Shown piece after piece: positions 6,464 to 62,944 of a stretch of DNA of 64,000 nt. The notes beneath the pieces were generated by a model, which saw nothing but the letters and a program-made list of their open reading frames with translations, was not told the origin of the DNA and did no database searches. Positions within the stretch are counted from its first letter, which is position 1; each line of letters begins with the position of its first letter. Location: positions 1 through 64,000 of the forward strand of contig NZ_JADCKL010000012.1 of assembly GCF_014982975.1 (NCBI RefSeq), written 5' to 3'. The stretch is from Claveliimonas monacensis (lineage in GTDB: Bacteria > Bacillota > Clostridia > Lachnospirales > Lachnospiraceae). The translations under genes were made by a program, and so were the position numbers.

Positions 6464-7198
6464 TTAATTTATTAATTTCTTTAAACCTTTCTTTCTCCTC
6501 ACAGAAACAGGACAGCTTTCCCCATTATTCATGTGGACGGTTAGCTCTTTGAAATCTACATCAGCGATGTTATCTTTATTGATAATATATGATGTATGAC
6601 ATCTATAAAATCGATAATCTAATTGTTGCTCAATATCTTTTAATTGTCCAGTAAATTCTATGACACGTTTTCTTGCATGCAAAATAATTTTATGGATATT
6701 ACTGGATGTTTCAAAGAAAATAATATCATTATAGTCAATCACAATATGTTTATCATTTTGATTAATCGTAAAGGTTCGGGTAACATCATTGTACAATGAT
6801 GTGTATTTATTGTTCACATCTAATAGGCATTCATGGATTTTAGATTTTATATGTTCAGCAGTATCCTTTACGATGAAATCTAGAGCTTCTGCCTTATATT
6901 GAAAGGTGAGAAAACTCATCTCTGAATGGGATGTAATAAAGACTATGAAACAGCGAGGCTGAATTTGTCGGATCCGCTGTGCAAGTGTCAGCCCATCCAT
7001 ATCAGATTTTAAATCAATGTCAAGAAAGAAAAGGCCTGTGTTTTCGGAAGTTAATATTTTTTTTAGAATCATATGGGGGTCAGATGTTGCCTGAACAATC
7101 TGCATATCAAAACCTTCCATAAGAATAAAATTAGATATATATTTTTGAAAGAGGCTTAACTGCTTTTTGTTGTCTTCACAGATGAAAATATCAATCAT
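6464..7198 (-). CDS. AgrA-like response regulator, LytTR DNA-binding
   Basis: A 244-residue two-component regulator. The receiver domain has the acidic pair ED at 8-9, the phospho-acceptor Asp60 in FFLDIDL, and FITSHSE plus DFIVKD for the conserved Thr and Lys. The C-terminal LytTR domain (about 135-240) has DYNDIIFFETSS, the FYRCHTSYIIN core and PVSVRRKKGLKKL. It likely binds direct or inverted repeats in the agr promoters after phosphorylation by the kinase at 7986-9308. An earlier GTG at 7210 overlaps the AGGAG site, so the ATG at 7198 is preferred. It is transcribed away from agrB. Confidence 0.9.
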   Translation of the reverse strand: MIDIFICEDNKKQLSLFQKYISNFILMEGFDMQIVQATSDPHMILKKILTSENTGLFFLDIDLKSDMDGLTLAQRIRQIQPRCFIVFITSHSEMSFLTFQYKAEALDFIVKDTAEHIKSKIHECLLDVNNKYTSLYNDVTRTFTINQNDKHIVIDYNDIIFFETSSNIHKIILHARKRVIEFTGQLKDIEQQLDYRFYRCHTSYIINKDNIADVDFKELTVHMNNGESCPVSVRRKKGLKKLIN

Positions 7199-7270
7199 GT
7201 TCAGTATCACTCCTTATTTTATCTTGTGATATGTTTATTATACAATAATTTGAGTTATTATAGAAGAAAA

Positions 7271-7341
7271 ATAATAAGTGTCAACTTTTTGATAATAAGT
7301 GTTTGGGATTAAGCAGTTTTTATATAGAAATGAACGTTTAT
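7271..7341. promoter_or_regulatory. Repeats upstream of agrB, candidate regulator sites
   Basis: ATAATAAGTGT occurs at 7271-7281 and again at 7292-7302, 21 bases apart (two helical turns). AACGTTTAT at 7333-7341 fits the LytTR box pattern as I recall it, and GTCAACTTT (7280-7288) resembles the same box reversed. The region lies between the divergent regulator and agrB genes, so autoregulation by the response regulator is plausible. Confidence 0.45.
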
Positions 7342-7403
7342 TATAAAAACCTAAAGGGTTATTTTTATTCTGCTATTATTGCTCCAAGAAAGGAGATACG
7401 AAA

Positions 7404-7973
7404 ATGGAAACAATCGCGAACAGAATTGTAAATTATTTAGATACTTATAAAACTATTTGGAGCGATGTAGATCGAATGCGAATGAGTTTGGGGCTGCAAA
7501 TCATGATTCATAATATCGTTATGATTGGAACGATTCTTTTGATTTCGAAAATTGCGGGAATTTTTCTGGAAGCCGTTGTTCTTTTGACTGCATATGGAAC
7601 GCTAAAAATGACCGCAGGAGGAGTACATTTCAGAACGAGTCTGGCATGTCTTATTGGGACTGGGGTATTTGTGATGGCTGGAGTTTTGTTTTCTAGACAG
7701 TTAAATATGGAGTTGTTTCATATAATGGGAATTTATCTTGTCTGTCTTATAATTCTGGTTAAAATTGGACCACAAGGTACTGAGAATAATCCAATCTCAG
7801 AAGAAAATTATATAAAACTCAGAAATAGAACGGGGTTTATAGTTTTGACATATATGTTTCTAACCGTTATTGTGGAAAATGTGACAGGTCGCATTCCATA
7901 TTTACTATTTATTGCGGTAGTATTTGAAACAATATCTATTCTTCCGTCTTATCTAAAAAACAGGAGCATTTAA
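7404..7973 (+). CDS. agrB: AgrB-like membrane cysteine peptidase
   Basis: AgrB removes the C-terminal tail of the AgrD propeptide and forms the thiolactone intermediate. The 189-residue length fits the family. The motif MTAGGVHFRTSLAC holds the catalytic His and Cys seven residues apart, after the conserved basic region. Four to six hydrophobic helices span the rest. The ATG has AAAGGAG upstream. The nearest AgrD-like gene is not adjacent but about 1.5 kb downstream, beyond the antisense kinase gene, which is unusual for agr loci. Confidence 0.9.
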   Translation: METIANRIVNYLDTYKTIWSDVDRMRMSLGLQIMIHNIVMIGTILLISKIAGIFLEAVVLLTAYGTLKMTAGGVHFRTSLACLIGTGVFVMAGVLFSRQLNMELFHIMGIYLVCLIILVKIGPQGTENNPISEENYIKLRNRTGFIVLTYMFLTVIVENVTGRIPYLLFIAVVFETISILPSYLKNRSI

Positions 7974-7987
7974 TGCTCCTGTTTTTT
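7955..7987. terminator. Bidirectional terminator between agrB and the kinase
   Basis: AAAAAACAGGAGCAT pairs perfectly with ATGCTCCTGTTTTTT around a two- or three-base loop. It overlaps the last codons of the convergent agrB and kinase genes and serves both. Confidence 0.85.
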
Positions 7988-9308
7988 AAGAAGATTGTTT
8001 TGATATGTGAAGGCGCTGCGTAAAAATATCATCTTGTATTTCAGTGTCTAAAAATACGTGATTATATTTAGAAATGATTTCGTGGGCATTATATAGTCCG
8101 ATCCCGCGGTTCGCTCCTTTTGTGGATACATTGGGTTTTGCCAAAGTGGCATATGGAATGCCCTTTTCTAAAAAGGTATTAGAAATGATAAAGATATATT
8201 CCGTATCCAAGTTAATTAGTGCAAAGCGGATTGAAGGCTGCTCTGTTTCCGTTGTAGCTTCGATAGCATTATCAAGAAAGATTCCAATAATCCGACATAG
8301 GTCAAGTGTATCTATTGGAAGTGAGGTTATTTCATCTGTCATTTCAATACAAACATTGATATTTAATTCTACTGCATATAGCAACTTAGAGGATAGGATA
8401 CTTTTGAGCTCAGTATTTTTGATATTCATCAGTTGGTTCATATGTGATGTGTTTTTTGTGATTTTCTTGCCTAATGGTAAAATCTCTTTATCAAAATATT
8501 CTCTTAAACCGTCCATATCGTTAGCTTCGATATATCCCGACATGGAAAGCATGATATTAGAAAAGTCGTGCTTAAAAGATCGTAATGAAGAATACATGCT
8601 TTCGATTTGATTAGTATATTCCTGCAACCTATTATAGGTATCCCGACGCATATCCATATCCACTTTTTCCATATGAGCTTTTATGATATTTACGATTAGG
8701 ATGGTACTGATGACAAAGTAGCAGGCAAACAAGATACAATTAAATGTTATAATACTACGGCTATATCCAATACATTCCCCAATTACTATATTAAACAAAA
8801 AAATAAATAGACAGCTCCCCAGATTTGTAGCAATAAGTAATAGAAGTTGTTTAGACAATCCGGCATGGATTTTCTGGATAACAAAATGGAGCAGTCGGCC
8901 TATTACTGGACAAATACAGCCTAAAAGTGCAATGTATGAAATTATGTAAATAACATAGTACATAAAATGGGCTTGTAAATCAGTAATAGGATAAATGAAT
9001 GTATCCCATAATAAAGAATAAAGATTATCCCAAAGTACGCAGAAAAGATAGGTGGCTATAAAGACACAGATATTCATTAAACGATTGGGATTGAGTATTG
9101 CAATATAAACACAGGTGCTTATAATTAACAGAATGACTCCAATGTTACCAAGAACAAATCCAATCAATAACATATTGATTAATAATATAACAAATAGTAC
9201 TGCTTTTTGTCTGAGTTTCAACTTGAATGGTAAAAAACAGCAAATGGGTAGCAAATAGGAAAAAACACTTAAAAAATACGGGAGTATTTGTATTGCTTGC
9301 AATGTCAT
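7986..9308 (-). CDS. AgrC-like sensor histidine kinase (GHKL type)
   Basis: A 440-residue membrane sensor. The N-terminal half (about residues 5-205) is a run of six or so hydrophobic helices, as in AgrC. The dimerisation and phospho-acceptor segment reads LRSFKHDFSNIM, with the His in the HD motif. The GHKL ATPase domain has IGIFLDNAIEAT (N box) and NRGIGLYNAHEI (G box). It should sense the mature peptide made from the AgrD-like gene at 9518 and pass phosphate to the regulator at 6464. It is divergent from agrD and convergent with agrB. Confidence 0.88.
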   Translation of the reverse strand: MTLQAIQILPYFLSVFSYLLPICCFLPFKLKLRQKAVLFVILLINMLLIGFVLGNIGVILLIISTCVYIAILNPNRLMNICVFIATYLFCVLWDNLYSLLWDTFIYPITDLQAHFMYYVIYIISYIALLGCICPVIGRLLHFVIQKIHAGLSKQLLLLIATNLGSCLFIFLFNIVIGECIGYSRSIITFNCILFACYFVISTILIVNIIKAHMEKVDMDMRRDTYNRLQEYTNQIESMYSSLRSFKHDFSNIMLSMSGYIEANDMDGLREYFDKEILPLGKKITKNTSHMNQLMNIKNTELKSILSSKLLYAVELNINVCIEMTDEITSLPIDTLDLCRIIGIFLDNAIEATTETEQPSIRFALINLDTEYIFIISNTFLEKGIPYATLAKPNVSTKGANRGIGLYNAHEIISKYNHVFLDTEIQDDIFTQRLHISKQSS

Positions 9309-10886: not shown

Positions 10887-11661
10887 GGAAAGAATAGATA
10901 AAGAACTGAATATGATTTATATGGATGAGAATCTGAAGAAACGGATAAGAAGTAGCTGTTCAAAGAAAAAATCATATAAATTACTAACCAGTATTGCAGC
11001 TTCCCTAGCTATAATTGTTCTGGCCGGAGGCACTGCGTTTGCAGGATATTATGCATTAAGTCGTATTACGGTAAATGAAGAGGAAACACCTGAGCTTAGT
11101 CAGATGTATGCGGTAGATGCGGAGTCTATTAATGGAAATATAGACGAATATGGGATGAGTGATAAAGACTATTCAGACTATGAGAGTATAAAAAGAGAGA
11201 TAGGTATTCCTCTATTAGACACCGAGTTGTCTCAAAATAATCCATATATGCGTGGGCATATTATGACTGATAATAAAGATTTTGCCATTATTACGGTAGA
11301 TAATTATGTTCTTGGTGATACCAGTAATTATATATATAATTCAGAGGAAGAAAGATACTTTTACAATTCTGGAGAGGAATATACCTCATCTGTTTCTCTA
11401 TCAATTGATATTATGTTAAGTAAAGAACAAGAAGTTAACGGGTGGACGGTGGATTATCTGGGAATGTATAAGTTTGTTGAAAGTTATATTTCCGACCAGG
11501 GATATAAAGTTAATATTTTGGAGGATCAAACTGATGAAAATGTAAGAGATTATGTATCAGAGAAATGCGCAGTTTTTGTAAAGGATGGAATACGATACAC
11601 CCTGAAAGGACGAATTCCTCTTGAGAGTATGAAAGAGATCATTAATTCTTTGAAGTACTAA
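10876..11661 (+). CDS. Membrane-anchored anti-sigma-like protein
   Basis: 261 residues with a short cytosolic N-terminus (NVKERIDKELNMIYMDENLK), a basic stretch and one transmembrane helix near residues 37-60. The remaining 200 residues are extracellular, acidic and Tyr/Ser/Asp rich. The start at 10876 has GGAGG upstream and lies inside the sigma gene, so the two are coupled. By analogy the cytosolic part would hold the sigma factor until an envelope signal frees it. The extracellular domain might match the DUF4179-type family, but I am not certain. Confidence 0.75.
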   Translation: MNVKERIDKELNMIYMDENLKKRIRSSCSKKKSYKLLTSIAASLAIIVLAGGTAFAGYYALSRITVNEEETPELSQMYAVDAESINGNIDEYGMSDKDYSDYESIKREIGIPLLDTELSQNNPYMRGHIMTDNKDFAIITVDNYVLGDTSNYIYNSEEERYFYNSGEEYTSSVSLSIDIMLSKEQEVNGWTVDYLGMYKFVESYISDQGYKVNILEDQTDENVRDYVSEKCAVFVKDGIRYTLKGRIPLESMKEIINSLKY

Positions 11662-11668
11662 ATAGATG

Positions 11669-11710
11669 CTGGAGAAAAACAACATCATACAGAAAAGTGT
11701 TTTTCTCCAG
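11669..11710 (+). terminator. Hairpin after the sigma/anti-sigma operon
   Basis: CTGGAGAAAAACA pairs perfectly with TGTTTTTCTCCAG around a 16-base loop, just behind the anti-sigma stop. The U-tract is inside the stem, so it may act as a terminator in either direction. Confidence 0.7.
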
Positions 11711-11747
11711 TCTAAAAAAGATATAAGCGGATAAATATAGCGATATC

Positions 11748-11777
11748 AAGAACGGCAGTAATCCGTTCTTTTTTTAG
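11748..11777 (+). terminator. Second intrinsic terminator
   Basis: AAGAACGG pairs with CCGTTCTT, followed by a run of T. It insulates the sigma operon from the regulators starting at 11880. Confidence 0.75.
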
Positions 11778-11879
11778 GTGCGATTATATTTTTGGAGAGT
11801 ACTGAGGTGCGCCTCATAGCTCAATTTTGCAATATAAGGTAAAATTTTCCAGAAATTTGTCGAAAGCAGGGGGCAATGG

Positions 11880-12146
11880 ATGAAGGGAAATTCCAAACAG
11901 TTGTTAATGGGTTATCTTAGAAAAGAAATCCATGCATTCCGTGATCAAGAAGGATATTCGCAGGAAATGATGGCTGAAAAGCTTCACATAGCGCCACGTT
12001 CGTATTTTGATCAGGAACATGGGAAATATGGATTTTCTGCACTATCACTTATCTATTTTCTTCTGCTACTTCCGGAGGAAGAAGTGATTATATTTCTTAA
12101 AAATTTCAGGGAATTACTGCAAAGGAGTGGGGAGGATGCAGCTTGA
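11880..12146 (+). CDS. Small helix-turn-helix regulator
   Basis: 88 residues with one HTH of the Cro/CI type: IHAFRDQEGYSQEMMAEKLH forms the first part and APRSYFDQEHGKYGFSALSL the recognition part. A C-terminal helical region ends in acidic residues. The start is an ATG or the equivalent near 11880, after a GGGGGCA-type site. It overlaps the next gene, so the two are one operon. It probably regulates the downstream conjugative-element genes; this is inference from position. Confidence 0.65.
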   Translation: MKGNSKQLLMGYLRKEIHAFRDQEGYSQEMMAEKLHIAPRSYFDQEHGKYGFSALSLIYFLLLLPEEEVIIFLKNFRELLQRSGEDAA

Positions 12147-12504
12147 GCCGATTCAATATGAAAAGGTATCGCAATGGCTGTTACGCAAACTGGGAATTAC
12201 AGCAAATTATCGAGGTTTTCATTATATTTCTCATGCTATGTATTTAATATCTGAGGATCAAGAACGATTACTATATGTTTCTAAATTACTATATCCAGAT
12301 CTTGCAAAAGAATACAAGACAGACTGGCGTGCAGTTGAACATAGTATCCGAACTGTAATTAATATTTTATGGAAAGACAATTCGGACTTTTTATGCTTTA
12401 TGGCAGAGTGTCAGCTGTCACGGAGGCCAGCAGCAGGAAAATTTTTAGCAATACTGTATGACTTTATCTCGAATCTTGATATTGAAGCATCACAGTTAAA
12501 CTAA
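12136..12504 (+). CDS. Spo0A C-terminal-domain-like DNA-binding protein
   Basis: A 122-residue protein with the layout of the Spo0A effector domain: GFHYISHAMYLISEDQ, then LYPDLAKEYKTDWRAVEHSI and RTVINILWKDN, compared with the LYP-IAKKYNTT-SRVERAIRHAI block of Spo0A. The receiver domain is absent, so it is not a phosphorelay target. The ATG at 12136 has AAGGAG nine bases upstream; the GTG at 12127 is in the ribosome site. It overlaps the HTH gene before it. It could read 0A-box-like sites and link the element to host sporulation state. Confidence 0.7.
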   Translation: MQLEPIQYEKVSQWLLRKLGITANYRGFHYISHAMYLISEDQERLLYVSKLLYPDLAKEYKTDWRAVEHSIRTVINILWKDNSDFLCFMAECQLSRRPAAGKFLAILYDFISNLDIEASQLN

Positions 12505-12606
12505 GAATATATCACAGAAATTGAAAGAAATTAAGCTTTTTTACAGAAAAGCCGTCTATTTCACGTTTATATAAAGTAGGAACTATTTTATAACGAGGTG
12601 AGAAAG

Positions 12607-52646: not shown

Positions 52647-53363
52647 TTAGAGATTGAAATCCGTCTCCCAGCAGTCAAAAGCGGTAATAATTTTTTGTTC
52701 AAGTGATAAATTTTCATTTTGGTTTAATTCTTTATTCGGAATACGTATTTCCTTAGGGGGACATAATGCAACAAAATCGTTATAAATTTTGATACCGACA
52801 ACATCAAATTCATTATGGAAACGTTTATTTCCGAAATAATAGTCCTTATTCTCTTTATTGGGACAGGGCTGATTTTTATTATAGTCAAAAACTTGAACAT
52901 GGAAGAATAATTCGCGGTATAAGGGCTTATTAGATAAAATATATATCAAGTCTTTCATATCCTGTATGTCGTCTGTTTGATAGTTCTCTTTAATAGCCTG
53001 GTTGATTTTTGTGACATATTGTTTAGCGGTTTCTAAATATTTATCGTAAGATTCACAATCATTGTGTCCAGTGGCTTTCTCTAGTGCGATTAGTAATTGA
53101 AATACGGAAAAGTATCTAAGGAGTTCCCGTTTGTTGTCATATACAGATTCAACATTTTTTTGGATATATTCTACAAGGTCATATAAAACATCTTTTCTAG
53201 AATTATAAAATTCGGGTAATGTCAGTCCTTCGTAAAAAATAATCTTTTTAGAAGATATCTCAAAAATAGAATGATCCTCAAGATATGGGCCTGGTGGAAG
53301 AGGAATGAAAATATTGTTGTCTTTGTTCAATTGTAATATCTCTATTAAATCTAAAACAGTCAT
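52647..53363 (-). CDS. Hypothetical AT-rich minus-strand protein (238 aa)
   Basis: A soluble, helical protein (MTVLDLIEILQLNKDNNIFI at the start, then LIALEKATGHNDCESYDKYL). The codon use is very AT-rich, unlike the element genes before it but like the peptide island after it. GGGAGGA-type site before the start. No domain is recognised. It could be a cargo gene or an immunity/regulatory gene for the neighbouring island. Confidence 0.55.
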   Translation of the reverse strand: MTVLDLIEILQLNKDNNIFIPLPPGPYLEDHSIFEISSKKIIFYEGLTLPEFYNSRKDVLYDLVEYIQKNVESVYDNKRELLRYFSVFQLLIALEKATGHNDCESYDKYLETAKQYVTKINQAIKENYQTDDIQDMKDLIYILSNKPLYRELFFHVQVFDYNKNQPCPNKENKDYYFGNKRFHNEFDVVGIKIYNDFVALCPPKEIRIPNKELNQNENLSLEQKIITAFDCWETDFNL

Positions 53364-53873: not shown

Positions 53874-55262
53874 ATGAACGAAAGATATAAAATAACAGGT
53901 TTAATTAGAGCCGAAAAATTTGGTGGGCTATATTATGAGCGAGATAGATTGGTTATTGAACTCCTTAACAATAGCAGTTTTGAAATTATGGATTTAATTG
54001 GCAAGGGTTATAGTGTTAAGGAAACAATTGAAAGAATTACAAAAAAATATGATGTCGATTATTCAAGAGTAGAAGAAGACGTTTTAAAGTATATTTCTTA
54101 TTTAGAAAAAAGTGGATATGTAGTATCGGAAAGTTCAAGCGACAATAGTAATGCAAGCGTTTATTTGCAAAAGAGCAAAGAACACACTTTGGTATGGCAA
54201 GACTTTATATTAGGTATGGAACCATATGAATTAAGAGCACCATTAAAAGTATTATTGGAGCTTACATATGCTTGCAATTTAAGATGTATACATTGTTTTG
54301 CCGATGCTGATTATTGTAAAGAAGGTATGACAATAGAGAAAGAACTAGGTTATGAAGAGTGGTGCAGAATAATAGATAACATTGTGAAAAATGATGTTTT
54401 TGAAATTCTTCTTTCAGGTGGAGAAGCCACTATGCGAGATGATTTAATAAAAATATGTGAATACATTCACTCCAAGAATAGAACATATAGCTTGTTGTCA
54501 AATGCTACTTTGATTGATTCAAAAATGGCGAGAGAATTAAAAAGGACAGGCTGCTCAAAAGTTGAAAGTAATCTTGATGGCCATGATGCAAAATCATATG
54601 AGGCATTTCGAGGGGTTAAAGGTTCTTTTGAACAAACAATTAAAGGTATCAAAGCCTGTCTAGAAGCAGGTATTCCAGTAAGATGCAATGTAATGGAAAC
54701 CAAAAAAACAATTTTCAATTTAAAAGAAATAGTAAATGTTGCATATAAAATAGGTGTGCGAGAAGTTTGTGTAATTCCGTTGGAATTAGGTGGACGTGCA
54801 AAGAACTTAAAAGAAATTTGCTTTCAAAAAGGCGATTTAGAAGGCCTAAATAGCTTTTATGAAGATGTTAATCAATGGTTTGATAAAAAATACGGCAATA
54901 CAGATATGGTACTATTTACTCCTAATCAATTTTCAAAGAATAAAGAGAGTAAATACACTAAGATTTTTGATATTGCCGGAATGATGCCTCGATGCGGTGC
55001 TGGTTTGATACACTGTACTATAAATCCATATGGTATCGTTAAGATGTGCCCAACAGATCATTCTTTACTTATAAATGAACAACTAAATATTTTACATGAT
55101 GACTTGGGTAACATATGGAAAAATTCAAAGGTGCTGAAAACAATCAGAGGCAATAATTTTAGAAAATGTGTCCATTGTGATCAGGTATGTGAAATGGAAT
55201 GCCCTGTAATGCGGAATGAATTAGAAGGTACACTCAATTATAGTTGTCATATGGGGGATTAA
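53874..55262 (+). CDS. Radical SAM/SPASM peptide maturase with N-terminal PqqD-like domain
   Basis: 462 residues. Residues 1-95 look like a PqqD/RRE domain that grips a leader peptide (VIELLNNSSFEIMDLIGKGY, then VEEDVLKYISYLEKSGY). The radical SAM barrel begins with LELTYACNLRCIHCF (CxxxCxxC for the 4Fe-4S cluster). The C-terminal SPASM region has CGAGLIHCTINPYGIVKMCP and further cysteines (CVHCDQVCEMECP). AGGAGGTG precedes the ATG at 53874. It is predicted to modify the peptide at 61876. Confidence 0.87.
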   Translation: MNERYKITGLIRAEKFGGLYYERDRLVIELLNNSSFEIMDLIGKGYSVKETIERITKKYDVDYSRVEEDVLKYISYLEKSGYVVSESSSDNSNASVYLQKSKEHTLVWQDFILGMEPYELRAPLKVLLELTYACNLRCIHCFADADYCKEGMTIEKELGYEEWCRIIDNIVKNDVFEILLSGGEATMRDDLIKICEYIHSKNRTYSLLSNATLIDSKMARELKRTGCSKVESNLDGHDAKSYEAFRGVKGSFEQTIKGIKACLEAGIPVRCNVMETKKTIFNLKEIVNVAYKIGVREVCVIPLELGGRAKNLKEICFQKGDLEGLNSFYEDVNQWFDKKYGNTDMVLFTPNQFSKNKESKYTKIFDIAGMMPRCGAGLIHCTINPYGIVKMCPTDHSLLINEQLNILHDDLGNIWKNSKVLKTIRGNNFRKCVHCDQVCEMECPVMRNELEGTLNYSCHMGD

Positions 55263-55266
55263 TAAT

Positions 55267-56301
55267 ATGATAGGAAAAAGAATAATAACACAGGAGGATA
55301 TTAACATTTTTTTGAATGATGGTCTTAATTCTCCGTTTAAAATTCCATCAAAATTTTCCGCTCCAATTTCACTCATATGGGAAGTGACAGGAAATTGTAA
55401 TTCAAATTGTATTTATTGCTCGGGTAGTTTCCCGAAACATATCAATGAAATGAAAAAGACGGATAAAATAAAGTTGGCAAAAGAAATCTGTGATATGAAA
55501 GTATTTATGATTTCATTATCTGGAGGTGAACCTTTGATAAGTCATGATTTATTGGAACTTGTCAATATCTTTATAGAAAATGATGTTTCAATAATGATCT
55601 GCACTTCTGGATATAGGATAAATTATAGCATTGTAGATGCGCTATTGAGATTAAAGAAAGTCTCTTTTAATATATCTATAGACTCTATAAACGATGAAAT
55701 CAATGATTTTCAAAGGGGACGTGTGGGTGCATTAAAGGGAGCGCTAAATTTAATTGAGTATATTAGAAACAATGAATTAACAGATACATTTATAAGTATA
55801 GAATCGGTTGCAACAAGAAAAAATTATTCCGGTATGACTGATTTGGTTGAATATTTTTCAAAAAATTGCAACGTAAACGAAATTAGAATTCAGCCTGTAG
55901 TAACAATGAATAAAGATGTTGTTGAAAATGAGTTAGAGATTAGCAAAGAAGAGTTCAAAAACTGCATGATAAATGTAAAAAAATTTATTGAAGAATATAA
56001 CTCAGTTGTTAGCGAGCCGAGCGAGGGATATATATGTGTTAGATTTGTAGATCAATTTAAAATGATAAAAAATGGGTTGGAAACAGAAAGAACATGGGGC
56101 GGCATCATTACTCCCCAAGGCGAATTTTTGCTCAGCGTTTATTTACCCAGCAATTTAGGTAGTGTATTTGAACTTGGAACCTTTAGAGAAACTTGGAATA
56201 AAAAGTTTTCTGATGGGTGGAAAATACTAAAAAAGGACAGTAATTTAAGTAATATTAATTGTGTTTACGATTTGAGAAAATTGTATGTAGATGTTTTATA
56301 A
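55267..56301 (+). CDS. Radical SAM enzyme with a degenerate, Cys-poor SPASM-like end
   Basis: 344 residues. The cluster motif is WEVTGNCNSNCIYC (CxxxCxxC), with ISLSGGEPLI following, as in peptide-modifying radical SAM enzymes. The C-terminal region still has the SPASM layout (GGIITPQGEFLLSVYLPSNL, then GTFRETWNKKF), but the cysteines that would hold auxiliary clusters are replaced. It may therefore have one cluster only. It starts five bases after the previous stop and is co-transcribed. Confidence 0.8.
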   Translation: MIGKRIITQEDINIFLNDGLNSPFKIPSKFSAPISLIWEVTGNCNSNCIYCSGSFPKHINEMKKTDKIKLAKEICDMKVFMISLSGGEPLISHDLLELVNIFIENDVSIMICTSGYRINYSIVDALLRLKKVSFNISIDSINDEINDFQRGRVGALKGALNLIEYIRNNELTDTFISIESVATRKNYSGMTDLVEYFSKNCNVNEIRIQPVVTMNKDVVENELEISKEEFKNCMINVKKFIEEYNSVVSEPSEGYICVRFVDQFKMIKNGLETERTWGGIITPQGEFLLSVYLPSNLGSVFELGTFRETWNKKFSDGWKILKKDSNLSNINCVYDLRKLYVDVL

Positions 56302-56312
56302 GGAGGTTAATT

Positions 56313-57332
56313 GTGAAAAAATTTGTGAACATTTTTGGAAACATAAATAACGACAAAGATATAATTGATGCTGCAGATGATTTCGCAGATTTAAGTAAAG
56401 CTAAACTTATACCTGATGAAGGATTTGATGCACCATTGTATGTCATGTGGGAGTTGACAAGTACTTGTCCAAACAAATGTATTTATTGTTATAATGATTC
56501 TCACAATAAAAGAGTTAATGAACTTAGTAGGAAAAGGAAATTTGAAATTGCAGATGAATTAATAAATGCAAAAGTTTTTCAAGTGTGTTTAACTGGTGGA
56601 GAACCTACATGTAGTAGTGAATATTTTGATTTAATGAGATATTTGCGATCTAATGGGATTGAAATTGGAACTATTTTAAGTGGTGCAAATCTAGATAGAA
56701 AAAAAATCAGAAAAATTGCAGAGTATGTTAATATGATTCAAATTAGTCTTGATGGTTCAAAACCTGAAATTCATGATTTTGTTAGGAATAGAAAGGGCTC
56801 ATTTGATGAAGCAGTTAATGCAATTAAAGGTTTTGTTAAACTAGGAAAACAAGTAAGGGTATCTTTTGCTACTACAAAATATAATATAGATGATTTTAAG
56901 AATACAGTCGAGTTGTGCAAAGAATTGGGAGTGGAGTCAGTAAGAACTCAGCGATTATCTATTTCTGGCAGAGTAAAAGGAAACGAAGAAGCAATTTACG
57001 CCACTGAAAAGCAGTTTGAAGAGTTAGAAAAATATATTTATTCAAAAAAAGCTCCTATACAAATTGAGTACAGAAGCCCTGCTGAGCATATAGAGTTTGG
57101 TATTAAAAATGGATATGCAACAGTTATGAGAATTACTTCGGATGGACTAGTAGGAATCACCCCATATATTGATGTATACTTTGGAGATCTAAATAAAGAA
57201 TCTTTTAATGACGTATGGAGAAAGATGAAAAAAGGATGGCATAATGAAGTAATGCTCTCATTAGCTAAAGAAATGAATTCAAGACAAAATGGCACATTAT
57301 TAGATCCGTTAACAGAAAAAATATTTTTATAA
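56313..57332 (+). CDS. Radical SAM enzyme, second Cys-poor SPASM-like paralogue
   Basis: 339 residues from GTG 56313 with AAGGAGG upstream. It has WELTSTCPNKCIYC and VCLTGGEPTC, clearly related to the gene before it. The final region (VMRITSDGLVGITPYIDVYF, then FNDVWRKM) lacks all SPASM cysteines; there are none in roughly the last 170 residues. The pair looks like a duplication followed by divergence. They may modify different positions of the same peptide or form a complex. Confidence 0.8.
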   Translation: MKKFVNIFGNINNDKDIIDAADDFADLSKAKLIPDEGFDAPLYVMWELTSTCPNKCIYCYNDSHNKRVNELSRKRKFEIADELINAKVFQVCLTGGEPTCSSEYFDLMRYLRSNGIEIGTILSGANLDRKKIRKIAEYVNMIQISLDGSKPEIHDFVRNRKGSFDEAVNAIKGFVKLGKQVRVSFATTKYNIDDFKNTVELCKELGVESVRTQRLSISGRVKGNEEAIYATEKQFEELEKYIYSKKAPIQIEYRSPAEHIEFGIKNGYATVMRITSDGLVGITPYIDVYFGDLNKESFNDVWRKMKKGWHNEVMLSLAKEMNSRQNGTLLDPLTEKIFL

Positions 57333-57353
57333 ACTGAGAGGAGTGTACTAAAA

Positions 57354-57632
57354 ATGTATAGAAATGAAATCCCTAAACTTATAAATATAAAATGGAGATA
57401 CGAGGGTGGTGGACAGTTCATAATATATCAACACCCAATAACAGGTATGCTGGATATTCTCAATCCTGTAGCCAGTCAAATTTTTGTGAATTGTGATGGT
57501 ACAAAATCAGTTAATCAGATTTGTAAAAATCTCTGTGAAGAATACTCAAATATTGACCAAAAGATTATTGAAGAAGATGTTAGTCGGTTCATTAATTATT
57601 TAGTGAAAGAGGATTTGTTGTTTTTAATTTAG
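57354..57632 (+). CDS. Stand-alone PqqD-like RRE protein
   Basis: 92 residues with the PqqD fold features: FIIYQHPITGMLDILNPVAS, then SVNQICKNLCEEYSNIDQKI and EEDVSRFINYLVKEDLLFLI. Such proteins hold the leader of a RiPP precursor and deliver it to the modifying enzyme. This is the second RRE of the locus besides that fused to the first enzyme. AGAGGAGTG lies before the ATG. Confidence 0.78.
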   Translation: MYRNEIPKLINIKWRYEGGGQFIIYQHPITGMLDILNPVASQIFVNCDGTKSVNQICKNLCEEYSNIDQKIIEEDVSRFINYLVKEDLLFLI

Positions 57633-57643
57633 GGAGGAAGAAT

Positions 57644-58108
57644 ATGAAATTTATAGAGTTGAAACATTCTGATATTAATTCTGTTTGTTCATATATTACA
57701 CATGCTTTTAGTAATAATCGCCAGATATTATCTATGTATAACAATGAAGATATTCTAGAAATGAGAATCAAAAACAAAATTGAATGTGGGATTGTATGTC
57801 AAACTGATACTGATATAGCTGGTGTTATAACAGCAATTACTACTAACAAAAAAAATTACTGGGCAATAGGGCTTTTATTTGTGAGCGAAAAATATAGAAA
57901 CAAAGATATAGGAAAAAAACTTGTTTCTCACCTTGAAAGAGCCATTTCGGAACAATATAAAGCAAGGTATAAAGTGAATGTTTCAGTAAGTGCTACGAAT
58001 CAACCTGCCTTATCAGTCTTTAAATACAATGGCTATAATATAGAAGGAGAAATGAAAGGGCTAATACCAGAAGATGATATGATCGTTTTTGGGAAAATTG
58101 TTGATTAA
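57644..58108 (+). CDS. GNAT-family N-acetyltransferase
   Basis: 154 residues. The acetyl-CoA binding region is visible as FVSEKYRNKDIGKKLVSHLE, the Q/RxxGxG/A-like turn of GNAT enzymes, followed by NVSVSATNQPALSVFKYNGY. It could acetylate the N-terminus of the processed peptide, or confer self-resistance. Other RiPP loci use such enzymes for both; the choice here is inference. AGGGAGG precedes the ATG. Confidence 0.82.
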   Translation: MKFIELKHSDINSVCSYITHAFSNNRQILSMYNNEDILEMRIKNKIECGIVCQTDTDIAGVITAITTNKKNYWAIGLLFVSEKYRNKDIGKKLVSHLERAISEQYKARYKVNVSVSATNQPALSVFKYNGYNIEGEMKGLIPEDDMIVFGKIVD

Positions 58109-58133
58109 AATATACAATACGGAGGCGTTGCAT

Positions 58134-58328
58134 ATGGAGAATCTTAACTATATTTGGCTTTTTGTACCTGTTATTGTAATAAATTTAATATTAGTAATTG
58201 TTTCATTGAGGGATTTATTTAAAAATCGTAGAGTGAGATATGGCAGTATTGTGATTTGGATATTGATTATCCTATTTATACAAATAATAGGTCCCATTCT
58301 TTACTTGACTATCGGGAGGGATGATTAA
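58134..58328 (+). CDS. Small membrane protein, PLDc_N-like
   Basis: 64 residues with two membrane helices (about 7-24 and 40-60) separated by a basic loop (RDLFKNRRVRYGS). The order LNYIWLFVPVIVINLILVIV ... IGPILYLTIGRDD resembles the N-terminal phospholipase D-nuclease family common beside peptide ABC transporters. Candidate immunity or export accessory protein. GGAGGC precedes the ATG, and the stop overlaps the next start (TAATG). Confidence 0.65.
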   Translation: MENLNYIWLFVPVIVINLILVIVSLRDLFKNRRVRYGSIVIWILIILFIQIIGPILYLTIGRDD

Positions 58329-59251
58329 TGAAATTACACGAAGAGCCTGTTTTGATAGCTAATGGCATAACTAAAAGCTTTAAGGGAAAGTGTGTAATTA
58401 AAAATGCGTCTTTTAGTATCAAAAAAAATTCTATTGTAGGTCTTGTGGGAAAGAATGGTGCAGGGAAAACAACACTTATGAGAATCTTGATAGGATTTTT
58501 GAAGGCTGATAGTGGTAGTGTTTGTATTGATGGCGTTGTGAGAAAAAATAATACTAAAACAAGTGGAATAGGTTACCTCACAGATGTTCCAGTATTCTAC
58601 GAATATATGACATGCTTTGAATATCTATCTATGTGTGCAGGACTATTGGGAATTGAAAACAGTAGAATTGGGTCTGAAGTAGACCGATTTTTAAAGTTAG
58701 TAAATCTTGAGAATAGTAAAGATAAAAAAATAAAGGGATATTCTAGAGGGATGAAGCAGCGATTGGGAATAGCCCAATGTTTGATTGGCGATCCTAAATT
58801 AATTATTTGTGATGAACCCATGTCTGCACTTGATCCGATAGGACGAGAAGAAGTGGCTGATATCTTTAACAATATAAAACAGGATACGAGTATACTGCTC
58901 TCCACCCATATTATGAGTGATGTAGAAAAATTATGTGATGAAGTAATTATTTTAAAAGATGGCAATTTGACGAAAATAGAATCCTTAGATGAGGTGGAAA
59001 AATTTTCGAATAAAAGCAAAATTTTAGAAATTGATTTTACTGGCTGCAAAAAAGATATCATTGATAATTTTGAATTAATAATTAAAAATAAAAAAATTAC
59101 GTATGAAAGGATATACAAAAAATTTAGGATAAATAATCTTAGCGATCAAATCATTGCTGACATATGTGGAATATTCTGCAACGCAAATGCAATGTTAATG
59201 TTTCCACGAAGTATCAATATAATTGATAAGGAAATTGACGAATTCTTTTAA
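58328..59251 (+). CDS. ABC transporter ATPase
   Basis: 307 residues. Walker A is GLVGKNGAGKTTLM, the signature YSRGMKQRLGIAQ and Walker B LIICDEPMSALDPIGR. It is of the drug/bacteriocin ABC type (BcrA/NatA-like). It overlaps the small membrane gene at its start and pairs with the permease at 59264. It may pump out the mature peptide or protect the producer. Confidence 0.9.
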   Translation: MKLHEEPVLIANGITKSFKGKCVIKNASFSIKKNSIVGLVGKNGAGKTTLMRILIGFLKADSGSVCIDGVVRKNNTKTSGIGYLTDVPVFYEYMTCFEYLSMCAGLLGIENSRIGSEVDRFLKLVNLENSKDKKIKGYSRGMKQRLGIAQCLIGDPKLIICDEPMSALDPIGREEVADIFNNIKQDTSILLSTHIMSDVEKLCDEVIILKDGNLTKIESLDEVEKFSNKSKILEIDFTGCKKDIIDNFELIIKNKKITYERIYKKFRINNLSDQIIADICGIFCNANAMLMFPRSINIIDKEIDEFF

Positions 59252-59263
59252 GGAGGTATTACT

Positions 59264-60037
59264 TTGAACGAGCTATGCGTTTTGCTAAAAAAAGAAGTAA
59301 AAGAGTATATTCGTAAACATAAGATTTTGATTATATTATCAGTCTTTATTTTGATTGGTATAATCTCTCCTTTAGGAACAAAATATTTAGGTGCTATATT
59401 GCAACAGCTTTTGCCTAGTGGATATGAAATCAAATTTAGATCTCCTTCAGAAATAGAAGCCTATTTTCAGTTTTTTAAGAATATTTCACAACTTGGTTTG
59501 ATTATTTTTATTTTCGCAACTGTAGGGATAATGTCAGATGAGTTTGAAAAGAAAACAATAATTAATATATTATCAAAAGGCATAAATAGAGGTACTGTAA
59601 TACTTTCTAAATTTGTTGTAACATCGGTTATATTTCTCTTAAGTTATACTGTCAGCATTATGGTGTTCAGATATTATACAGGTATATTTTGGGGAAACAA
59701 TATACGCATAGGAGTTGTTATATATTCAAGTATTTTAATTTACTTTTATGGTGTTCTTAATATATCAGTTAACATTTTTTTTGGAACTATTTTTGAAAAT
59801 AAGATTCTTACGCTAGTTGTTTGCTTTGCTTTTAATATAATTCAGATGTTTTTAGGAATTTTTCCACAAATAGCAAGATATTTACCTGTTTCTTCATTAT
59901 CTCAATGTGTTTATATTGTAGAGGGTAAAATTGATATTTATGAGACAATTCCAGCACTACTTTCTACATTATTTTTTACTGCCTTATTATTGATTATATC
60001 AATATATTTATTTAATAGAAAGGAAATTGATCAATGA
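59264..60037 (+). CDS. ABC-2 type permease
   Basis: 257 residues from TTG 59264 with AAGGAGGT upstream. Six hydrophobic helices with the ABC-2 motif order (LCVLLKKEVKEYIRKHKILI at the N-terminus, MSDEFEKKTIINILSKGINR in the first cytosolic loop). It is the membrane partner of the ATPase before it. Its stop overlaps the next ATPase start by ATGA. Confidence 0.82.
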   Translation: MNELCVLLKKEVKEYIRKHKILIILSVFILIGIISPLGTKYLGAILQQLLPSGYEIKFRSPSEIEAYFQFFKNISQLGLIIFIFATVGIMSDEFEKKTIINILSKGINRGTVILSKFVVTSVIFLLSYTVSIMVFRYYTGIFWGNNIRIGVVIYSSILIYFYGVLNISVNIFFGTIFENKILTLVVCFAFNIIQMFLGIFPQIARYLPVSSLSQCVYIVEGKIDIYETIPALLSTLFFTALLLIISIYLFNRKEIDQ

Positions 60038-60975
60038 AATATCTTCAAAAAGAAAAATCAATAGAAGTAAAAAATCTTGTAAAACAATTCGATAGAAAAG
60101 TAGTGCTTAATGGAATTTCTTTTGAAGTAAACAAAGGTGAAATATATGGCTTTTTAGGACCTAATGGTGCTGGGAAAACTACGCTTGTTAAAATCTTGAA
60201 TGGACTTATAAAGCCGGATGAAGGCTATGTCGAAGTATTTGGCATTAGTCCTGTAAAATATCCGGATAAGGTTCATGCTAAAATAGGAACTTTGACTGAG
60301 ACAGCTAATATGTATAAATATCTTACAGGATTAGAAAACTTAATGTTTTTTTCAAAAATATTTGGCATGAATGATATGCAAGCCAAGGAAAGATCCTTGG
60401 AAGTTCTTAAGATGGTAGATATGTATGATGAGAAAGATAAAAAAATAGAATTTTATTCAACGGGTATGGAAAAAAGATTATCCTTGGCAAGGACTTTTTT
60501 GCATAGTCCTAAAATTGTAATTTTAGATGAGCCTACTACAGGATTAGATCCTGAAAGCGCTAAAAATATAAACGTTGCAATAAAAAGATATGCTGAAGAG
60601 AATGAAGCTACAGTATTTTTATGTACTCATCAATTAAGATATGCCCAGGATATATGCACTAAATACGCATTTATTAATAATGGTAATATAATATGCATAG
60701 GTGAGTTAGGTGACATAATAAAAAAATATAAATTTGATAAGTTTATATATATTGAAGCGGAAATAAATCATAACCTTGAAGAGTTTAATCTTACTAAGCT
60801 AAATGGTAATGAGTATAGGGTTATTATGAAAGATAAAGAGCAGGTATCTAAAATAGTAGAAAGAATAGTGTTAAGTGGTGGTAAAGTTTATAGCGTCAGA
60901 ATACTTGAACCTAGCTTAGAAGATGTTTATTTTAAACTGATTAAAAGAGGTGGGGCATATGAGCAATTTAGCTAA
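60034..60975 (+). CDS. Second ABC transporter ATPase
   Basis: 313 residues. Walker A is FLGPNGAGKTTLVK, the signature YSTGMEKRLSLAR and Walker B IVILDEPTTGLDPES. It differs from the first ATPase in sequence, so the locus has two complete ABC systems. The start overlaps the preceding permease. The C-terminal part may be a regulatory extension. Confidence 0.9.
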   Translation: MKYLQKEKSIEVKNLVKQFDRKVVLNGISFEVNKGEIYGFLGPNGAGKTTLVKILNGLIKPDEGYVEVFGISPVKYPDKVHAKIGTLTETANMYKYLTGLENLMFFSKIFGMNDMQAKERSLEVLKMVDMYDEKDKKIEFYSTGMEKRLSLARTFLHSPKIVILDEPTTGLDPESAKNINVAIKRYAEENEATVFLCTHQLRYAQDICTKYAFINNGNIICIGELGDIIKKYKFDKFIYIEAEINHNLEEFNLTKLNGNEYRVIMKDKEQVSKIVERIVLSGGKVYSVRILEPSLEDVYFKLIKRGGAYEQFS

Positions 60976-61750
60976 TGAAATAGTCAAAAAAGATATTTTT
61001 TCTGTTCTAGGTAATAAGAGGTTAATTTGTCTTATATCGCTGGTGCCTGTCATATTAACACTTGTTATGCCTAGTATACTAATAATATATGTTGCCAAAT
61101 CTAATATTGAATTAGATAGGTTTTATAGTGTTCTTAAACAACCCATAATTGATAGTATGGAAAACTTTACAAAGTACGAGCAGAAAGAACTTATCATAGC
61201 ATTTTTTATTGATAATATTTTACCGATATTTTTTTTACTTATACCTACAATGAGTTCTAGTATTATTTCTGCAAATTCTTTTGTTGGGGAAAAAGAGAAA
61301 GGTACTTTAGAAACATTATATCTTTCCCCAATCAAAGTACAAGATATATTTATAGCTAAGGTAAAAGTTTCAATAATTTTTAGCATGGCTTTGAATATTA
61401 TAGTTTTTTTTGTAATGTGTATTGAGCTAAACATTCTATTAAGTGTTCTTGGATTTCAATATTTTGTTCCTGGTGTAAGATGGGGAATATTACTATTAAT
61501 TACCAGTTTAGCTATAACGATTTTATCCACAACATTTGTAATTAAAAGTTCAAAGAAATCAGAGACTGCAGAAGAGGCGCAACAATCGGCTGTCTTTATA
61601 ATACTTCCTATAATGGCTTTAGTCGTAGGACAATTTGCTGGATTAATATTTATCAGCGATTTACTAGTTATAGTTGTAAGTTTAGTATTATTAATTTTTT
61701 CTTTGGCGATGTTAATTCGTGCGTCGAGTAAAGTTGACTATAATTGTTGA
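60959..61750 (+). CDS. ABC-2 family permease (NatB-like)
   Basis: 263 residues. The ATG at 60959 has GAGGTGG upstream and overlaps the ATPase. The motif ISANSFVGEKEKGTLETLYL is the typical ABC-2/NatB block. Six helices follow (LLITSLAITILSTTFVI, LLVIVVSLVLLIFSLAML). It pairs with the second ATPase, and ends before the promoter region of the peptide gene. Confidence 0.82.
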   Translation: MSNLANEIVKKDIFSVLGNKRLICLISLVPVILTLVMPSILIIYVAKSNIELDRFYSVLKQPIIDSMENFTKYEQKELIIAFFIDNILPIFFLLIPTMSSSIISANSFVGEKEKGTLETLYLSPIKVQDIFIAKVKVSIIFSMALNIIVFFVMCIELNILLSVLGFQYFVPGVRWGILLLITSLAITILSTTFVIKSSKKSETAEEAQQSAVFIILPIMALVVGQFAGLIFISDLLVIVVSLVLLIFSLAMLIRASSKVDYNC

Positions 61751-61771
61751 TGCTTTAAAACATCATTTTAT
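61749..61771 (+). terminator. Short hairpin after the second permease
   Basis: TGATG pairs with CATCA around CTTTAAAA, followed by TTTTAT. A short stem, so probably a weak terminator or processing site; the peptide gene then follows 100 bases later. A TTGTTT/GAATAA pair at 61812-61840 could be a promoter for it. Confidence 0.4.
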
Positions 61772-61875
61772 AGTAAAATACGTAACTGAATTATTTATTG
61801 TAAATTCTTTTTTGTTTAGCTTTCTTTGGATTAAGAATAATAAATAATGTTAGTTAGAGTGGAGGAGGTGAAAAT

Positions 61876-62004
61876 ATGACTAAGAGAGAGTATGTATCGC
61901 CTGCTAGCTTAAGATTGTCAAGTGTTGACAACGAATATGGCGCAGCTATAGGTGCAGTAGTACTTTGGGTAATAGGTGCTGTGTTTGGTTGGTTAGTAAC
62001 ATAG
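61876..62004 (+). CDS. Candidate RiPP precursor peptide
   Basis: A 42-residue peptide with a strong GGAGGAGGTGA before the ATG. The leader has REYVSPASLRLSS, a YxxP motif like those read by RRE/PqqD domains in lasso and other RiPP systems, then an acidic VDNEYG. The last 20 residues, AAIGAVVLWVIGAVFGWLVT, are purely hydrophobic with two Trp, Gly at regular intervals, no Cys and only a terminal Thr. This suits radical SAM chemistry (epimerisation or C-C linkage) better than sulphur crosslinks. It is the last gene of the island and the only plausible substrate seen. Confidence 0.75.
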   Translation: MTKREYVSPASLRLSSVDNEYGAAIGAVVLWVIGAVFGWLVT

Positions 62005-62115: not shown

Positions 62116-62173
62116 TCTTTTACGTCAATAATTTTAAGTTTATATGGTAAATCATACATTTAGCTTATTATTT

Positions 62174-62193
62174 GGTCGCCGACGACGGCGACC
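62174..62193. repeat. GC-rich palindrome at the island's right edge
   Basis: GGTCGCCG-ACGA-CGGCGACC forms a perfect eight-base stem in AT-rich DNA. Beyond it the sequence changes to IS21-like remnants. It may be a terminator of the peptide transcript or an end of the mobile segment. Confidence 0.55.
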
Positions 62194-62464
62194 GGTTTTC
62201 ATTTGTTTTGGTATTGCATAACTCTGGCAGCCGATCGGATCAGGGAAGCAGTTCTTGAAATGCAAGGAGCAGACTCCAACAACCTTGTTCTATTCCAGGT
62301 ACAGCTGATGGGAAGTTTGAAAGTGATATGTAAATGTACTGTATTGTTCCTTGTAGCCATAAAAACGGCAGTGGACGCAATCTGGTGAATATTACGGTGC
62401 GGCGGAGCCGCCAGTCCTGTGGCGAGAGTCACCTGTCCGGACTAACGGAGCCACATGTTTAGAG

Positions 62465-62944
62465 TTACTTGGCATGGGCAGGATCCAAGCCATATATCTC
62501 TCTCATGGAAAGGCCTTTCGATGGATCAATGCTCTCAATGTTGATTTTATATGAATCGTAAGAAATACGATCCATAATGGTATCTGCAAGATTGCTCTCA
62601 CCGCTGCAGACCTGCTGGTACCACTCGCTTTCCCGGAACTAGGAGCAGAAGATGATCGATGACTTCTTCCTGCGTTTGTGGATCAGCTCGAAAAGATTTC
62701 TGGCTTTGGACTCGGTCAGTTTGAGCAGGAGCCATTCATCAATGATCAGCAGGACTGGCTTGGTGTATTTCTTTAGTACACTAGAAAAAGCACCGGTATC
62801 TCTGGCTGCCTGGAGATTAAGTGACAGGTCTGGAAGCCGGACATAATTCACGGTGTAATAGTGTTCACATGCCTCCATACCAAAAGCGCATACAAGATAA
62901 GTCTTACCACTTCGTGTGGCACCGGTAATAAAAATGTTGCGGAA
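62465..62944 (-). pseudogene. istB: istB remnant (IS21-family ATPase), N-terminally truncated with a stop
   Basis: Minus-strand frame with the IstB/DnaA-like ATPase features: IFITGATRSGKTYLVCAFGM (Walker A), KYTKPVLLIIDEWLL (Walker B) and the family end SMREIYGLDPAHAK. It has an in-frame TAG at 62639-62641, and its beginning is cut near 62944. IS21 elements need IstA too, which is not present. The stretch 62199-62460 beyond its stop is probably the right-hand part of the same element. Confidence 0.75.

Follow-up and report, generated by a model that had tools for sequence, protein, structure and literature searches.

A rare, conserved radical SAM locus of predicted RiPP type with a cysteine-free hydrophobic precursor in Claveliimonas monacensis

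The DNA analysed here, referred to as the window, is a stretch of 64,000 nucleotides from Claveliimonas monacensis (positions 1 to 64,000 of contig NZ_JADCKL010000012.1, assembly GCF_014982975.1). Near its right end, at 53874-62004 (8.1 kb), a plus-strand run of ten protein genes, spaced by short gaps or overlaps, ends in a peptide gene. The run is read here as a probable locus for a ribosomally synthesized and post-translationally modified peptide (RiPP). The first gene (53874-55262) encodes rSAM1, a protein of 462 residues with a PqqD-type RiPP recognition element (RRE), a radical S-adenosylmethionine (SAM) domain and a SPASM domain. Two further radical SAM enzymes, rSAM2 (344 residues; 55267-56301) and rSAM3 (339 residues; 56313-57332), are followed by a stand-alone PqqD-type RRE protein of 92 residues (57354-57632; PF05402, E 1.9e-12), a GNAT acetyltransferase of 154 residues (57644-58108; Pfam, E 8.8e-12) and a PLDc_N-type small membrane protein of 64 residues (58134-58328; PF13396, E 1.2e-07). 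Two ATP-binding cassette (ABC) pairs come next, namely ATPase 1 (58328-59251) with ABC-2 type permease 1 (59264-60037), and ATPase 2 (60034-60975) with ABC-2 type permease 2 (60959-61750); the permeases are recognised by Pfam, the ATPases by an NCBIfam search and by comparison across loci. The peptide gene (61876-62004) is the last of the run. A preliminary description of this DNA had placed these genes here in one direction, and the coordinates and Pfam domains confirm all of them.

The peptide has 42 residues, MTKREYVSPASLRLSSVDNEYGAAIGAVVLWVIGAVFGWLVT, and its open reading frame is preceded by GGAGGAGGTG. It carries the YxxP leader that had been proposed for it, in the form of YVSP (Y6-P9), and residues 19-22 are NEYG. 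The border between leader and core probably lies just after this motif, with the core beginning at A23. This core, AAIGAVVLWVIGAVFGWLVT, contains no Cys, Ser or Lys, as stated before, and has a mean hydropathy of 2.19, with a best 19-residue mean of 2.35. The earlier comparison with gramicidin holds for composition and for nothing beyond it. A Pfam search at E up to 1 returned nothing for the window peptide.

Similar peptides occur elsewhere. Six related loci were compared: those of the window, Pseudobutyrivibrio ruminis CF1b, [C.] polysaccharolyticum DSM 1801, the metagenome-assembled genome (MAG) Ess09-15, which holds the cluster of genome G891, and genomes G284 and G1144. A peptide with the YxxP leader and the core signature AI-x4-[LV]-W (A24-W31 of the window peptide; 61945-61968, plus strand) lies beside the enzymes in four of the six, and the alignment of five such peptides defines the signature. 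The leader Tyr and Pro, the AI and the Trp are invariant in all five, and the signature Ala always stands 18 residues past the leader Tyr. None of the five contains Cys (the other four being judged as aligned), and none has an NCBIfam match at E up to 10. The sequence EYG recurs in three, those of the window, P. ruminis and [C.] polysaccharolyticum, whose precursors have 40-43 residues. The start codons of the two MAG peptides are uncertain, and the first 12 residues of their listed reading frames (59 and 61 residues) were trimmed for alignments and models.

Comparison with P. ruminis indicates that the peptide gene is maintained as such. Four of the 42 aligned codons carry a nonsynonymous difference, against 18 with a synonymous one and 20 without any (nonsynonymous distance, dN, 0.076; synonymous distance, dS, 2.23, near saturation). 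The excess of synonymous over nonsynonymous changes points to purifying selection on the peptide, and a chance reading frame is ruled out by this test. The four aligned residues that differ are leader residues 2, 4 and 7 and V41A in the core; as listed, the P. ruminis reading frame has one extra residue near its N-terminus. The peptide is the best conserved of the ten genes compared (90% versus 46-77%), seven of which were saturated, so that their dS was not computable. The pattern Y..P.{8,20}AI....[LV]W, applied to 26,640 six-frame stretches, gave 17 matches, all of them copies of the five peptides that had defined it. In hold-out comparisons, a hidden Markov model (HMM) built from the three clostridial peptides placed MAG peptide 1 at the top of 420 frames (E 0.015); with an HMM of the two MAG peptides, the best of 1832 frames was the window peptide (E 0.038) and the best of 551 the P. 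ruminis peptide (E 0.1).

Each locus has its own distinctive features. P. ruminis keeps the gene order of the window whole, the PLDc_N gene and the syntenic peptide included, and adds a GHKL kinase and a LytTR response regulator just upstream of the run. The window has a GHKL kinase and a LytTR regulator elsewhere, in an Agr-type system with AgrB at 6464-9308; at 25% and 26% identity to the P. ruminis counterparts they are too distant for an orthology call. The run in [C.] polysaccharolyticum comprises rSAM2, a large B12-binding radical SAM enzyme (B12-binding match 29.3 bits, just below the Pfam cut-off), PLDc_N, an ABC pair, GNAT (23% identity to that of the window), the peptide, rSAM1, rSAM3, PqqD, a degenerate radical SAM homologue, a further B12-binding radical SAM enzyme, a methyltransferase and a further ABC pair. 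In G284 the order is rSAM1, rSAM2, rSAM3, PqqD, a degenerate homologue, a B12-binding radical SAM enzyme, a methyltransferase, an ABC pair and a large B12-binding radical SAM enzyme. The rSAM2 of G284 was named by gene order as well as best match, since its score to the G891 rSAM3 (183 bits) is nearly equal to its scores to other rSAM2 proteins (183-191 bits). The degenerate homologues lack CxxxCxxC and adjoin the B12 enzyme genes (11326-12189 in [C.] polysaccharolyticum and 11548-12516 in G284, locus coordinates); that of [C.] polysaccharolyticum appears to be a radical SAM relative by weak similarity, and these proteins are possibly binding subunits. The MAG run consists of a separate PqqD-type protein, peptide 1, rSAM1, rSAM3, PqqD, a LuxR-type response regulator, peptide 2 and ABC genes. 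Its rSAM1, the start of which is uncertain and was set at 8223 inside a reading frame listed from 8127, has no PqqD match, the RRE being split off into the separate PqqD-type gene upstream. G1144 is represented by a 3.5-kb contig with a radical SAM enzyme, PqqD and an ABC protein.

The three radical SAM enzymes are not alike. In rSAM1 the Radical_SAM domain (E 5.9e-21) and the PqqD domain (E 6.2e-06, residues 31-83) are recognised by Pfam, and the SPASM match is weak (E 0.0024; 18.6 bits, below the cut-off of 21.5). Eight C-terminal Cys residues are common to all five aligned rSAM1 sequences, one of which is a fragment; eight such Cys residues are the pattern of SPASM enzymes with two auxiliary clusters. 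In rSAM2 (Radical_SAM, E 2.6e-19; no SPASM match) only the cluster residues C44, C48 and C51 are invariant in the four sequences, and four further Cys positions are common to the window and P. ruminis alone. In rSAM3 (Radical_SAM, E 1.3e-24; SPASM, E 0.05, below cut-off) the invariant residues in five sequences are the cluster Cys C52, C56 and C59 together with Cys92 and Cys202. The two enzymes had been described as related, which hhalign bears out (2.7e-49 over 279 columns), and their tails have no Cys common to all members. The rSAM3 tail is weakly SPASM-like, and that of rSAM2 may be read as SPASM-like from its alignment to rSAM3. The closest sequences in the Protein Data Bank (PDB) are PqqE, then SkfB, for rSAM1, and SkfB, then PqqE, for rSAM2 and rSAM3. 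In NCBIfam, rSAM1, rSAM2 and rSAM3 stay below every cut-off among the 25 best rows for each, as does the stand-alone PqqD protein in all eight of its rows (TIGR03859, 38.5 bits, cut-off 46). The AlphaFold model of rSAM3 has a mean predicted local distance difference test score (pLDDT) of 75.3 and a predicted template modelling score (pTM) of 0.79.

Taken as a whole, these features are best explained by a RiPP locus of an undescribed group in which the enzymes play the roles proposed below, a reading given a probability of about 0.7. That the run is a RiPP locus at all is highly probable; that its group of radical SAM RiPPs is undescribed is likely; and the product is rather probably membrane-active, serving as an antimicrobial or a signal. 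A RiPP locus is marked by a genetically encoded precursor that is kept next to its modifying enzymes in evolution, and predicted precursors are so placed in the four peptide-bearing loci. The YxxP peptide with its Cys-free hydrophobic core travels with the radical SAM/SPASM enzyme, rSAM3, the stand-alone RRE and the ABC transporters. The locus thus described is real, rare and conserved, and possibly represents a new class.

To our knowledge, most known radical SAM RiPPs rely on Cys, or on a polar residue close to an aromatic residue. Since the conserved substrate here is almost wholly aliphatic apart from Trp, the enzymes would have to act on unactivated side chains or alpha-carbons. Chemistry on aliphatic side chains has a precedent in a radical SAM/SPASM enzyme that converts Val to cyclopropylglycine (PMC9062424). 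The PqqD-type domains would bind the YxxP leader and bring the core to the enzymes, YxxP and W/Y/LxxP/L/I being RRE recognition sequences (PMC12710340). Oxidative work near the conserved Trp of the core, either C-C cross-linking or desaturation, would fall to rSAM1, because such work needs an electron sink and only rSAM1, with its full set of SPASM Cys residues, seems to have one; formation of an oxidative bond by rSAM1 is plausible at somewhat less than even odds. Since rSAM3 has no auxiliary-cluster Cys and two invariant extra ones, its work would be redox-neutral, most likely L-to-D epimerisation of aliphatic residues, a role proposed with the same slightly-below-even confidence. A further change would be made by rSAM2, after which the leader would be removed. 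Acetylation of an amino group is a possible role for GNAT. Of the ABC pairs, one would export the product, and the other, with the PLDc_N protein, would protect the cell.

Several points weigh against this reading. G284 has rSAM2, rSAM3 and PqqD, yet no peptide match was found in its genome at E up to 10. No rSAM2 was seen in G891, while the other four of the five sufficiently long loci have it. With the MAG HMM, an unrelated frame (E 0.034) outranks the [C.] polysaccharolyticum peptide, which comes second (E 0.11; 483 frames), and the clostridial HMM recovers MAG peptide 2 at no better than E 6.4; hold-out support between the clades is weak, and the strong E-values of the precursor profile belong to peptides used to build it. 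The AlphaFold model of rSAM2 is poor (mean pLDDT 62.9, pTM 0.70), Cys92 and Cys202 of rSAM3 may be structural rather than catalytic, and no protease is present among the cluster genes to explain leader removal. Given the absence of rSAM2 from G891, the invariant core does not comprise all three radical SAM enzymes. The preliminary description held that homologous loci without the peptide would defeat the idea of a new system, and one of the six, G284, is such a locus, next to the four with the peptide and G1144, where the contig is too short to judge and the genome-wide matches are no better than E 0.26. Since rSAM1 of G284 is truncated at its 5' end (locus 8500-9047) and no precursor was found in the genome, this cluster may be decaying. 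An HMM of all five peptides found nothing credible in the G284 locus (L011) or in locus L069 (best E 0.71 and 0.74, respectively).

Two accounts of the product compete on level terms, each given rather less than even odds. In one, the product is a D-amino-acid peptide akin to epipeptides and proteusins, in which rSAM2 and rSAM3 epimerise core Val, Ile and Ala, the clusters with B12 enzymes add C-methyl groups, and the whole forms a membrane-spanning helix. The Cys pattern of the two enzymes fits, neither having common auxiliary-cluster Cys and rSAM3 keeping two invariant extra ones; proteusin epimerases have the radical SAM cluster only, need a critical Cys and act at sites that include Val and Ile (PMC8326336). 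The two B12-binding radical SAM enzymes and the methyltransferase in the [C.] polysaccharolyticum and G284 runs also fit, as does epipeptide YydF, which depolarises membranes and adjoins the ABC pair YydIJ, although LiaIH and not YydIJ gives the main resistance (PMC7026026). However, rSAM2 lacks any extra Cys that is invariant, neither Pfam (window peptide) nor NCBIfam (all five) recognised a leader of NHLP or Nif11 type, and no B12 enzyme is present in the window or the P. ruminis run.

In the other account, the product is a C-C cross-linked or oxidised peptide: rSAM1 would bond the conserved Trp to the side chain of an aliphatic residue close by, or would oxidise such side chains. The eight SPASM-region Cys kept in all five rSAM1 sequences, the similarity of rSAM1 to PqqE and SkfB as nearest solved sequences, and the invariant Trp of the signature in all five peptides are consistent with this, and the SPASM enzyme acting on Val again provides a precedent (PMC9062424). 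However, no cyclophane-maturase model reaches its cut-off among the 25 best NCBIfam rows, and the polar third residue of Aro-x-Asn has no equivalent, Trp+2 being Ile or Trp.

A splicease-like rSAM2 that excises tyramine at the NEYG junction, leaving a keto-beta-residue next to the core, is improbable. XYG is the splicease site (PMC10533398), and EYG is found in the peptides of three loci with rSAM2 and is absent from both G891 peptides, where rSAM2 is lacking. However, three loci against one are confounded by kinship, G284 has rSAM2 without a peptide, the natural sites named are MYG and LYG (PMC10533398), and NEYG may be merely a leader or cleavage feature. Least probable of all is that the peptide is no substrate but acts unmodified, as a hydrophobic bacteriocin or a membrane peptide, or that the enzymes make a small cofactor: the core alone is plausible as a transmembrane stretch, G284 keeps the enzymes without a detectable peptide and the top PDB match of rSAM1 is PqqE, but the leader Tyr and Pro and the constant spacing to the core are kept in all five peptides, as expected for RRE binding, and the peptide gene stays with the enzymes despite moving (last in the window and P. 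ruminis, before rSAM1 in [C.] polysaccharolyticum, two copies in G891).

The predicted RiPP locus shares parts with several known systems. SkfB, CteB and StsB, maturases of sactipeptide or ranthipeptide type, and PqqE with PqqD combine RRE, radical SAM and SPASM as rSAM1 does, and the stand-alone PqqD-type RRE of PqqE/PqqD is also present here. The present locus differs from these systems in that the precursors are Cys-free, the rSAM2 and rSAM3 tails have no shared Cys and no NCBIfam cut-off is reached. Precursors without Cys make a Cys thioether impossible, and these classes were ruled out for want of a Cys donor in any of the five peptides. The PQQ and mycofactocin systems were ruled out because the PqqE and MftC models score below cut-off for rSAM1, rSAM2 and rSAM3. 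Lasso peptides also have a YxxP leader and a PqqD-type RRE (PMC12710340), but here radical SAM enzymes replace the cyclase; this class was ruled out, neither a lasso cyclase nor a leader protease family being found among the ten protein genes. The epipeptide system YydF/EpeE (yydFGHIJ) is similar in its short precursor, radical SAM enzyme and ABC pair (PMC7026026), and a membrane-active product, as for YydF, would be expected here. It differs in that the window has three radical SAM enzymes, RREs and no counterpart of the putative protease YydH. Proteusins (PoyD/PoyC) are similar in their one-cluster radical SAM enzymes and in the B12 enzymes of [C.] polysaccharolyticum and G284, and the proteusin core of polytheonamide is hydrophobic and aliphatic; the YxxP leader, the lack of an NHLP/Nif11-type match and the SPASM domain of rSAM1 set the present locus apart. 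Circular bacteriocins of the amylocyclicin type are hydrophobic peptides with ABC genes. One is reported in [C.] polysaccharolyticum DSM1801 (PMC13289728); the present locus differs in its radical SAM enzymes and in its YxxP precursor, which has 40-43 residues in the window, P. ruminis and [C.] polysaccharolyticum.

Each genome set searched contained one or two carriers, so that the locus is rare and scattered, and it may have been spread by horizontal transfer. With rSAM2 or rSAM3 as query, at E-value limits that differed between searches, carriers numbered 1 of 250 genomes of the family (rSAM2; the window's own), 1 of 11 of the genus (its own), 2 of 391 of the class (its own and G284) and 2 of 398 of the phylum (its own and G891). 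Among 100 relatives of G284 the one carrier was G284; among 151 relatives of G891 there were two, G891 and G1144, and these were again the two found among 154 genomes of the class of G891. Of 397 family genomes, the precursor profile picked out two, the window's own and one with its match placed as in [C.] polysaccharolyticum, which assigns the window to the family of that species. Among genome contigs, a search with a three-row rSAM3 alignment yielded 321 pattern matches and, from these, 51 related loci; three are set off from the rest by their identity to the query (P. ruminis CF1b 77%, [C.] polysaccharolyticum DSM 1801 45%, MAG Ess09-15 37%), the next match being 30% over about half of the query. 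These three are the members; one other locus was read and set aside, and the remainder were covered by motif scans only, which gave one unrelated match (L058) among the loci set aside. With rSAM2 patterns, none of ten genome-contig matches was a relative. Viral contigs gave 3, 47 and 40 pattern matches with rSAM3, the rSAM3 alignment and the precursor alignment, respectively, with no relative by tblastn. Plasmids gave 29 records with rSAM2, all below 60% identity, the 20 listed being mycofactocin sites, PqqE sites and further radical SAM sites that are annotated otherwise or not at all, and none with the peptide; phages gave only eight distant records with rSAM3.

No description of the cluster or its product was found in NCBIfam, Pfam, PDB sequences or open-access papers (mostly titles and abstracts, supplements excluded), in agreement with the earlier statement that no described RiPP class was known to combine these genes with such a core. 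Supplementary files or antiSMASH output may list the cluster without a product. The Hungate1000 bacteriocin paper reports 22 RRE-containing hits, and neither CF1b nor radical SAM occurs in its main text (PMC13289728); Pseudobutyrivibrio does not occur in the accessible part of PMC8241843. A new RiPP class of clostridia and one distant MAG, in which a SPASM enzyme and one or two enzymes with Cys-less tails, possibly degenerate SPASM domains, act successively on a Cys-free, transmembrane-like core bound by way of its YxxP leader to give a cross-linked and/or D-residue membrane peptide, with B12 variants adding C-methyl groups, is an unlikely generalisation. If it is correct, the B12 variants would be a parallel to polytheonamide built from other parts. 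Five natural precursors of one spacing and signature, with enzyme sets of rising complexity (the MAG has two radical SAM enzymes, the window and Pseudobutyrivibrio have three, and [C.] polysaccharolyticum and G284 have B12-binding ones in addition), form a series for assigning the change made by each enzyme, and P. ruminis CF1b and [C.] polysaccharolyticum DSM 1801 are possible natural producers.

The run has a GC content of 30.3%, against 47.7-49.7% in 2-kb blocks between 42 and 52 kb; other parts of the window are also AT-rich (31.6-39.2% GC at 2-20 kb). A terminator-like hairpin of ten pairs lies 3' of the peptide gene (62172-62195, plus strand), a consensus match only; five such hairpins were observed in the region versus 2.5 (standard deviation 1.8) in shuffles. 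The promoter scan of the region stayed at shuffle level (50 observed, 50.6 expected), Rfam gave no match, and the repeats are unremarkable. Just past the peptide gene, on the minus strand, is a remnant of an IS21 IstB-type ATPase (62642-62878; PF01695, E 2.2e-15, residues 114-192 of 238). On the other side, a minus-strand gene (52647-53363) encodes a 238-residue protein with no Pfam match above cut-off. The run lies directly to the right of a stretch (13600-52600) with conjugative-element genes, namely an actin/ParM-like protein, a TraG-type ATPase, a type IV secretion system coupling protein and an ERF recombinase, followed by an 1863-residue SpaA-repeat surface protein with a thioester domain and a sortase. 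Beyond the window, about 16 kb downstream on the same contig (78259-83000), is a second cluster of radical SAM peptide type, with a PapB-like radical SAM enzyme (NF047865, 190 bits, cut-off 340), an S8 subtilase, a split ABC transporter and a radical SAM/SPASM protein that extends past the end of the examined stretch. Speculatively, its subtilase could conceivably cut the leader in trans. A search of the genome with rSAM2 found, apart from the query, the other two radical SAM enzymes of the run and four radical SAM places elsewhere, one of them at 82177.

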